This document shows, piece after piece, positions 48,833-51,019 of a DNA stretch of 64,000 bases. The stretch is from contig NZ_NWFK02000001.1 in assembly GCF_002313155.2 (NCBI RefSeq), forward strand, positions 3,038,001 to 3,102,000, given 5' to 3'. A program made the position numbers and the translations under genes. A model generated the notes under the pieces. That model was not told the origin of the DNA. It saw only the letters and a list, made by a program, of their open reading frames with translations, and searched no databases. Source of the stretch: Psychrobacter sp. FDAARGOS_221 (lineage in GTDB: Bacteria > Pseudomonadota > Gammaproteobacteria > Pseudomonadales > Moraxellaceae). How positions within the stretch are numbered: position 1 is the first letter of the stretch; each line of letters starts with the position of its first letter.

Positions 48833-49127
48833 TTCATATTCACCGTTGTAGAGACTTGCTATTATGCGACGAAATGAGGCTACTGGCAAATGTTTGGCAC
48901 AAATTCAAAATGAAGCGTAACAATTGTGCTATTTAAGGTGGTGGCTTGATAACAAACCACTAATTTTAGGTTAAATAATTCAGGTATAATCAGTAACATT
49001 TAGCTTATTTTTTATTCATTTGTATTTTTAACCATTATATTTAACACGCATTTTAAATTAGGTGTTTTATTTAGATTTATTTTGGTTTTATTTAAATTGT
49101 TTTTTATTGAAGACACCAGGGGATAGC

Positions 49128-50111
49128 ATGGCGGCTCAGAGTGACCGGACAAACGATAACAATAAGCTAAATAAAGCAAATAAAGTAAAAGACGATGAGT
49201 TTTATACGCAGCTAAAAGACATCGAAAAAGAGCTGCCACATTATCAAGATTATTTTAAAGACAAAATCATTCTGTGTAATTGTGATGATCCATCAAAAAG
49301 TAATTTTTTTAAATATTTTGCGATTAACTTTGATCAGCTGGGTATAAAACAGCTAATAGCGACTTATTTTAACGCTAATAAACCGGTTTATAGATATGAA
49401 GTCAATAATGCCCTGAGCTTAAACAAAGACGGTAATATTGATTTAACTGAAGTAAAAAAGACACCGCTACAGCAGCAAGGTGACTTTCAAAGTTCTGAAT
49501 GTATTGAGATTTTAAAGTCTGCAGATATTGTTGTTACCAATCCGCCGTTTTCATTGTTTAGAGCTTTTATAGAAGTGCTGATGCAGCATGAAAAGCAGTT
49601 TTTGGTTATTGGTAATAGCAATGCCATCAGTTACAAAGATTGCTTTGAATATATTATGAATGACCAAATGTGGTTGGGTTACAATAATGTGCGTTGGTTT
49701 TACAAGCCAGACGGGACGTTGTTTGAAGCTGCGCGCTCATTTTGGTATACCAACTTAGATAATTTAAAGCGGCATAAGCGTTTTGAGCTGGATAAAACTT
49801 TCTGTGCAGACGACTATCCACAATATGATAATATTCATGCTATCGAGGTCGGCAAGGCCAAAAATATTCCGATTGATTATAGCGGGGTGATGGGCGTACC
49901 GATTACCTTTATTGATAAGTACAATCCAGATCAGTTTGAAATTGTTGGTTTAGACTACCATGTAAAAGAGGGTAGGCTGCCACATCTTGTCAAAAGTGAG
50001 TGGCAAGGTAAGCTAGATAGGGCATATTTAAAGGGCAAGCGGCTTTATTCGCGAGTGTTAATTAGGCACAACTTAGATAATACAGCCCATATAATAATGA
50101 ACAAGGATTGA
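49128..50111 (+). CDS. EcoRI-family adenine-specific DNA methyltransferase
   Basis: A 327-residue N6-adenine DNA methyltransferase. Seen: DEFYTQLKDIEKEL, CNCDDPSKSNFFKYFA and NPPFSLFR at 138-145 (motif IV NPPF), a pattern close to M.EcoRI in order and length (about 326 residues). The frame opens at 49062, but the ATG at 49128 has AGGGG six bases upstream. The next gene starts five bases after its stop. A modification enzyme of this kind normally protects the host from a cognate endonuclease, which makes the downstream gene a candidate. No C-protein regulator was seen. Confidence 0.88.
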   Translation: MAAQSDRTNDNNKLNKANKVKDDEFYTQLKDIEKELPHYQDYFKDKIILCNCDDPSKSNFFKYFAINFDQLGIKQLIATYFNANKPVYRYEVNNALSLNKDGNIDLTEVKKTPLQQQGDFQSSECIEILKSADIVVTNPPFSLFRAFIEVLMQHEKQFLVIGNSNAISYKDCFEYIMNDQMWLGYNNVRWFYKPDGTLFEAARSFWYTNLDNLKRHKRFELDKTFCADDYPQYDNIHAIEVGKAKNIPIDYSGVMGVPITFIDKYNPDQFEIVGLDYHVKEGRLPHLVKSEWQGKLDRAYLKGKRLYSRVLIRHNLDNTAHIIMNKD

Positions 50112-50116
50112 TCAGC

Positions 50117-50854
50117 ATGCCCTTCGAGTACGTTAATATTGACTGTCAGCAATCGGGTCCGCCCTCTCAGTATCTGGATAAACGCTATACCCTGGTAAAG
50201 TGTGTGTTCAAAAATAAAGTTAACTTATCGAAGGACTATCATGATAAAGCTTGGGCATTGGCGCAACAAGTTAATCCCAAGCAGGCCAATGATGCGGTTA
50301 GCTCAAGAGACAAGCAGCGATTGATTCAAGATGCACTAGGCGGTGTGTTAGCAGAGTATGGTTGGTTTCATTATATTAATCGTGTTTTTGGTGATAATTC
50401 CGTCAGCTTTACAGAAATGAAGCAGGGCGAGCAACAGATCGACTTAAAACTCAGTAATGGCACGACCATTGAGGTGCGTTCTTCTTTTCCAAGAAATGGT
50501 ATTGAGTTTGCGGTTTGTCATAGCCGTCATCAATTCAAAAATATCTGTAAGTATGAAAACCTGTACAAATTGCAAGAGACAGCAAAAGACTTCTTCGCTT
50601 GCGTCTATTTTGAAACTCAAAAAGATCAGTTATTGGCCGCTGAAGAGATAGTGTTTTATTTGGTGGGTGGTTCGACTCGCGATATGATGCTTGACGATAG
50701 CATCGCCTATGACACAGACTTGGTCGCTGAAGATGATTTAACCCAGCAAACAACCAAATACAAGGTGATTAATATCAGTAATGCACTGGATATCAGCGGC
50801 TTTGAGCAATACATGCAACAATTGGGATATCAAAAAAATAACACCCTGTTTTAA
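50117..50854 (+). CDS. Candidate restriction endonuclease (PD-(D/E)XK-like) paired with the methyltransferase
   Basis: A 245-residue soluble protein I do not recognise. It shows a plausible nuclease core: a helix with Glu80 in LGGVLAEYGW, then Asp109 in QIDLKL, a short turn and Glu119-Val-Arg121 in TIEVRSSF, followed by a hydrophobic strand FFACVYF. That order fits PD-(D/E)XK folds, though the catalytic Lys is replaced by Arg. It does not resemble EcoRI itself. The TTG at 50108 opens the frame, but the ATG at 50117 follows AAGGA by nine bases. Function as the cognate endonuclease is inferred from position and motif. Confidence 0.6.
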   Translation: MPFEYVNIDCQQSGPPSQYLDKRYTLVKCVFKNKVNLSKDYHDKAWALAQQVNPKQANDAVSSRDKQRLIQDALGGVLAEYGWFHYINRVFGDNSVSFTEMKQGEQQIDLKLSNGTTIEVRSSFPRNGIEFAVCHSRHQFKNICKYENLYKLQETAKDFFACVYFETQKDQLLAAEEIVFYLVGGSTRDMMLDDSIAYDTDLVAEDDLTQQTTKYKVINISNALDISGFEQYMQQLGYQKNNTLF

Positions 50855-51019
50855 TTAAATCAGCAGCTGAATCATTTAAACTATTTATCAATAGCAATAC
50901 TTAACAGCACTTTACTAAACTATTTTATCAACCATTAACCAATCACTTAATTAAAACTTTTTTTAACTTAGATTCTTTAAATTTACATTCTTTTAATTTA
51001 ACCAATAGGCTCGTGTACT

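Follow-up and report, generated by a model that had tools for sequence, protein, structure and literature searches.

Two adjacent genes were found on the forward strand of the window, a term used here for the whole 64,000-nucleotide stretch of DNA analysed. The first, termed M (49128..50111), encodes a 327 aa EcoRI-type adenine-specific DNA methyltransferase, assigned through PF13651 and PADLOC MTase_II, which starts at an ATG preceded by an AGGGG stretch and stops at a TGA. Five nucleotides beyond this stop codon is the ATG of the second, termed X (50117..50854), encoding a 245 aa predicted PD-(D/E)XR nuclease and candidate restriction endonuclease, on the basis of its relatives, conserved residues, structural model and fold neighbours; an ORF check confirmed both the length of this frame and its spacing from the methylase, as given in a preliminary description of the region. 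The G+C content of M is 36.5% and that of X 40.9%, relative to 42.2% for the window. The pair is delimited by two A+T-rich spacers. One (48890..49127; 26% G+C) separates M from a divergent L,D-transpeptidase gene and, from its composition, is presumed to comprise the left edge of an insertion and the promoter region of M; the other (50855..51019; 24% G+C), between X and prmB, is presumed to be the right edge, given its composition and the absence of the pair from this site in all 12 congeners.

Both flanking genes, which had been described as housekeeping functions, were recovered in profile searches, the left as a YkuD L,D-transpeptidase and the right as prmB (TIGR03533, 364.8 bits against a cut-off of 229.7); neither mod nor res of a type III system is found beside the pair, the neighbours of X being M, the transpeptidase gene and prmB. 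The prmB gene was searched for in 19 genomes (the window's own, 12 congeners and six more distant), and its neighbourhood was compared in the 12 congeners. In every one of these the transpeptidase gene lies beside prmB with neither M nor X there, hence the window copy is an insertion, as had been anticipated from its position between housekeeping genes. A repeat scan of the insertion edges found no clear target-site duplication, and a scan for promoters and terminators returned nothing informative. Gene content suggests that the family is Moraxellaceae and the genus Psychrobacter-like. Among 299 genomes of this family X was found in just one, and a profile of four rows likewise found it in one of 398 genomes of the phylum, in each case the window's own genome. 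Matches to PF13651 are present in six of the 299 family genomes and five of the 398 phylum genomes, one of the latter below the cut-off, with the window's genome included in both counts.

EcoRI-type methylases and the nuclease genes beside them

The assignment of M to the EcoRI-type family is strongly supported by a Pfam profile search (PF13651 EcoRI_methylase, E 9.1e-108, 361 bits against a cut-off of 26.4) and by the PADLOC MTase_II model PDLC03297 (E 5.8e-100), and the motifs DEFYTQ, CNCDDP, SNFFKYFA and NPPFSLFR, previously noted in the protein, are all present. By family, M appears to be the stand-alone, sequence-specific DNA methyltransferase characteristic of Type II restriction-modification (R-M) systems. 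Its length is almost the same as that of the methylase of an Escherichia coli EcoRI plasmid (326 aa), and it is 55% identical to the M of a second M-X pair, found on a Campylobacter coli plasmid (L002). A tree of M sequences was computed by a quick method without bootstrapping and contains 83 rows, as six of the 99 available loci had a broken or split M and were omitted, and ten identical sequences were merged. The window and C. coli proteins are sisters in this tree (SH-aLRT 100), and the four-row clade holding the tree's two EcoRI-linked methylases stands apart from them. The likeness to M.EcoRI that had been described therefore holds for family, length and motif order, but does not extend to tree position, and M was rejected as a true M.EcoRI orthologue.

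The nuclease genes neighbouring this methylase family are varied. Considering the same strand within 400 nt of M, a GmrSD_N/HNH gene was found at 55 of the 99 loci (downstream at 51), EcoRI at three, X at two and none of these at 39, the last figure consisting of 37 loci without any match and two with a match that was not placed within that distance; anywhere in the fetched locus, the corresponding figures are 57, 3, 2 and 37. These loci, comprising 11 from L002 and the genome searches, 80 viral contigs and eight others including the window, are not independent, containing 88 distinct longest M frames and, in L021 and L024, the same place twice; six of them supplied the GmrSD_N/HNH profile and a single one the EcoRI profile. 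The pairing of a conserved EcoRI-type methylase with a non-EcoRI nuclease, put forward as a novelty in the preliminary description, is consequently common, and neither is the particular pairing with X confined to this genome, since it recurs on the C. coli plasmid. The methylase family, like X, thus swaps partners, and GAATTC should not be assumed to be the target of M in the window; that the target is a 6 bp palindrome is likewise an assumption. Avoidance of GAATTC was discarded as a clue to the target, the counts being uninformative (two sites in the window against 4.1 expected, and 277 in the genome).

The commonest locus form of the EcoRI-type methylase is that in which it is accompanied, usually directly downstream, by a GmrSD_N(DUF262)-HNH gene; examples are L015, L016, L017, L024, L026-L028, L132, L135 and many of the viral contigs L051-L129. 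Such a combination has the appearance of an independent restriction pair. In all five of the other family genomes containing PF13651, at least one copy is associated with a GmrSD_N/HNH gene, that in G045 being a remnant, and several EcoRI-type methylase copies in G098, G056 and G045 (L017, L019-L025) are either split or carry internal stop codons. A different arrangement occurs at L088, L096 and L131, the last of these on the Psychrobacter plasmid pA3H10, where the methylase gene is followed by an overlapping frame for a 278 aa protein, which in L131 matches a D12 methyltransferase, and no nuclease; the M sequences of these three loci form their own clade. On a plasmid of Campylobacter sp. RM16187, an EcoRI-type methylase is followed by a 209 aa protein without a Pfam match (L136:3438-4067), in which a PDLGHD...SIKSS stretch appears X-like by eye, and which is possibly another PD-(D/E)XK partner.

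The X protein and its relatives

X had no Pfam or NCBIfam match above a curated cut-off, and PADLOC gave nothing at E <= 1; PHROGs returned only weak matches to tail proteins (E 0.003-0.006), and comparison with the sequences of solved structures yielded a single weak match (E 0.18). The X family profile found none of the latter sequences at E <= 10. A nucleotidyltransferase identity was dismissed because the match to the poly(A) polymerase head domain PF01743 reached 20.5 bits, below the cut-off of 23, and covered just 32 residues; CdiI_4, DnaA-inactivator and tail-protein identities were similarly rejected, the matches all being weak. The EcoRI endonuclease model was absent from the Pfam matches of X at E <= 1, and a profile made from one E. 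coli EcoRI sequence did not match at E <= 1e-3, in agreement with the earlier remark that X does not resemble this enzyme. GmrSD_N, DUF262 and HNH domains were likewise absent from its Pfam matches. The X family has no model in the four libraries searched, novelty being judged here against family libraries only.

Searches with tblastn and short-pattern scans of DNA identified 12 relatives of X, one of them a fragment (L011), the 11 full-length proteins sharing 23-60% identity and coming from both bacteria and archaea; owing to the manner in which the family was gathered, every count of X is a lower bound. The closest, at 60% identity to the window protein, is that of the C. coli plasmid, and the remainder are found on a Methanomethylovorans plasmid (L003), a viral contig (L004), six GTDB loci (L006-L011) and plasmids of Thermococcus (L012), Methanocaldococcus (L013) and Lactococcus (L014). 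The first pattern scan of genome contigs confirmed no X loci and the second six; the scans of viral contigs contributed L004 alone, and none was found in the phage records scanned.

The preliminary description had proposed that Glu80, Asp109 and Glu119-x-Arg121 constitute a PD-(D/E)XK core in which Arg replaces the usual Lys. In an alignment of 12 rows, including the window protein and omitting the fragment L011, E80, E119 and R121 are invariant, even between rows only 22% identical, and D109 is in place in ten, the archaeal L012 and L013 having an Asp two columns earlier; this residue pattern is more than would be expected by chance. The E-x-R triplet ends in Arg, and never in the Lys of the canonical motif, in all 12 rows, for which reason the label 'PD-(D/E)XR variant' is used. 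Also invariant are G76, T117, S122, S123 and Y215, together with R64, F140, Y146, K151, E154, K157, D158, Y181 and G184, a set of non-catalytic residues whose conservation would be unusual were specificity diverging freely.

The fold predicted for X moderately resembles that of PD-(D/E)XK nucleases, in line with the nuclease-like fold that had been proposed. The AlphaFold2 model has a pLDDT of 81.2 and a pTM of 0.83. The 50 chains listed as its structural neighbours are nearly all, as far as we could identify them, PD-(D/E)XK-fold nucleases, including NhoI, DpnI, EcoRV, HincII, PvuII, SwaI and HhaI; the VIA-align Z values are below 8, a range in which, according to the tool's own warning, arrangements may agree by chance. 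The best BFVD match is annotated as 'Restriction endonuclease' (E 1.4e-6); a Foldseek search of the PDB found no match at E <= 0.001, the best having an E of 0.094, and the 50 structural matches listed for a second member of the X family include no restriction nuclease.

Methylases associated with X

At 11 of the 13 X loci, the immediate neighbour of X is a DNA methyltransferase, and these enzymes are of five kinds representing four Pfam families, the small beta-class and type III Mod proteins both having PF01555; on account of this shared domain, a description of the partners as 'unrelated' was dropped. The EcoRI-type enzyme is the partner in the window and L002, a small beta-class N6_N4 enzyme (PF01555) in L006 and L009, a D12-class enzyme (PF02086) in L010, an Eco57I/IIG-like enzyme (PF07669) with a TaqI_C specificity domain in L012 and L013, and a type III Mod in L003, L004, L007 and L008, the Mod of L008 being assigned to its class by alignment to that of L007 (65% identity). 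Among proteins of solved structure, CcrM is the nearest to the L009 methylase (E 6e-36), and the L010 enzyme is nearest to 259 aa chains labelled as DNA adenine methylase (E 9e-43), presumably T4 Dam. Going by their families, the EcoRI-type, CcrM-like and Dam-like partners may all have targets of the GA...TC type. No C5-cytosine enzyme occurs among the partners, although 11 loci are too few for this to carry any meaning. A match between the L006 methylase and M.RsrI, with a shared GAATTC target, was considered and rejected, because RsrI is only among several weak matches and another of these is better.

At ten of these 11 loci X comes immediately after the methylase, with spacings, measured from start codons chosen here (in the C. 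coli record the annotated start is further downstream), that range from a 20 nt overlap to a 33 nt gap; the exception is L003, where X precedes mod by approximately 80 nt. The two loci without a methylase neighbour are L014, in which X lies between an IS6 transposase and a convergent AlwI-type system, and L011, where the X fragment is at a contig edge upstream of a type III res and no methylase was seen on the 4.7 kb contig. Among the loci found, then, X does not occur widely in the absence of a methylase, a distribution that had been named as one that would refute an R-M pair. In the archaeal IIG-like methylases (L012:1261-4860 and L013:1455-4991), the N-terminal motif reads by eye as PD...ExE rather than ExK, the domain match in L012 being below threshold; these proteins perhaps have a decayed N-terminal nuclease domain, and X may supply the cutting there.

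The sister relationship of the window and C. coli methylases, taken with the 60% identity of their X proteins, indicates that M and X travel as a pair. The association is nevertheless not fixed: the X of L006, at 57% identity to that of the window, is about as close as the C. coli protein, yet is accompanied by a methylase of another class, hence the partner has changed while X stayed. That X proteins 57-60% identical are associated twice with an EcoRI-type methylase and once with a beta-class enzyme implies either that both methylases protect one site, or that X is independent of a fixed site.

Possible roles of X and comparison with known systems

The interpretation favoured here, which is considered probable, is that M and X constitute a compact, horizontally acquired, Type II-like R-M pair, in which X is a partner-swapping PD-(D/E)XR endonuclease cutting unmarked DNA. 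Judging from its family, M would mark adenines at its target in the host DNA. X, given its predicted fold, would be a metal-dependent nuclease of the PD-(D/E)XK fold, its active site comprising E80, D109 and E119, with Arg121 replacing the usual Lys, and would cleave incoming DNA without the mark of M; M and X would have a shared target, and M would give protection. X belongs to a rare family that has been re-paired in the course of evolution with methylases of five kinds, so that its target would have to be shared with, or protected by, each travelling partner. A single methylase with X, the classical Type II layout, appears to be present at seven of the 13 loci, as judged from ORF lists or record annotations of the outer genes.

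A further five relatives of X are in type III loci, with both mod and res at L003, L004, L007 and L008 and res only at L011, and suggest a role broader than that of a simple Type II enzyme. X lies between mod and res at L004, L007 and L008, and as Res retains its own PD...ExK motif in all four proteins read, X is not replacing a missing nuclease. Among 74 viral loci retrieved for their related res, using a query made of X-linked Res, 67 have mod upstream; the interval between the two contained no ORF of at least 90 aa in 45 of these, another ORF in 17 and X in one, which is again the L004 contig, while in the remaining four a GmrSD_N/HNH match is present at some position, and in two of these an ORF also separates mod from res. 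An ORF of at least 90 aa therefore occupies this interval in 20 of the 67 loci (within L138-L210). In two plasmid records (L211 and L212), PDDEXK and DUF262 genes are annotated between mod and res, and other inserts appear by eye to be PLD-, RhuM- or Fic-like; the position thus accepts varied extra genes.

Such loci bear on an alternative that is unlikely but deserves consideration, in which X is an accessory methylation-sensitive nuclease, carried as cargo beside amino-methylases, that shares no target with them and cuts in response to a general signal, for example missing adenine methylation or the state of DNA during restriction. This would accommodate the breadth of the partners across four Pfam families, with type III loci whose Res retains its nuclease motif among them, the exchange of extra genes between mod and res, and the invariance of so many non-catalytic residues; the seven loci of classical layout instead fit the R-M pair favoured here. 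Sites of type III systems carry methylation on a single strand, so a simple Type II cutter with the target of Mod would be dangerous in these loci, and this misfit leaves room for an X that answers adenine methylation in a broader context. There is accordingly a slim chance that X acts as a portable nuclease distinguishing self from non-self, which reads adenine methylation in a broad sequence context and can be licensed by any partner, functioning alongside EcoRI-type, CcrM-like, Dam-like, IIG-like and Mod enzymes because it has no fixed site.

It is doubtful to a similar degree that X is a weakened or inactive PD-(D/E)XK protein binding DNA or the methylase, for instance as a specificity or regulatory subunit. 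The substitution of Arg for the catalytic Lys throughout the alignment, and the displacement of D109 in two archaeal rows, might be taken as signs of decay, but an inactive core should tend to diverge, rather than to maintain E80, E119 and R121 across bacteria and archaea, and a dedicated subunit is unlikely to have partners from four Pfam families. Least credible is that the window copy is a recently acquired, non-functional remnant and M in practice solitary, for although 277 genomic GAATTC sites indicate no strong avoidance, if this is the target, and X is missing from the other 298 family genomes searched, both frames are intact, as are those of the C. coli pair, X has every family-invariant residue, and a recent arrival would not be expected to have produced avoidance of a site that may not be its target.

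If X does cut DNA, as the R-M pair interpretation requires, it would represent an endonuclease family lacking a model in the libraries searched and having Arg at the catalytic Lys position, which spans bacteria and archaea and is found beside five kinds of methylase. Recognition of this family would allow annotation pipelines to flag a 'hypothetical protein' beside a methylase as a likely restriction system at several loci.

The pair can be compared with a number of known systems. With Type II R-M systems of the EcoRI family (PF13651) it shares the methylase family, length and motif order, and a methylase adjoining one nuclease candidate; however, EcoRI precedes the methylase in the loci read, whereas the order in the window is M then X, the sequence of the nuclease is unmatched by X, and the window M lies off the EcoRI-linked part of the tree. 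The GmrSD_N(DUF262)-HNH pairs similarly combine a methylase with one nuclease gene, usually directly downstream (51 of 55), but X is instead PD-(D/E)XK-like and has no DUF262 or HNH match. The X family profile has no sequence match to EcoRV, HincII, PvuII, DpnI or NhoI, from which X differs in having Arg for Lys and additional invariant residues in its C-terminal half. Five X relatives are found in type III (mod/res) loci, three with X between mod and res, but the window locus is without either gene, and Res in the type III loci has its own nuclease motif.
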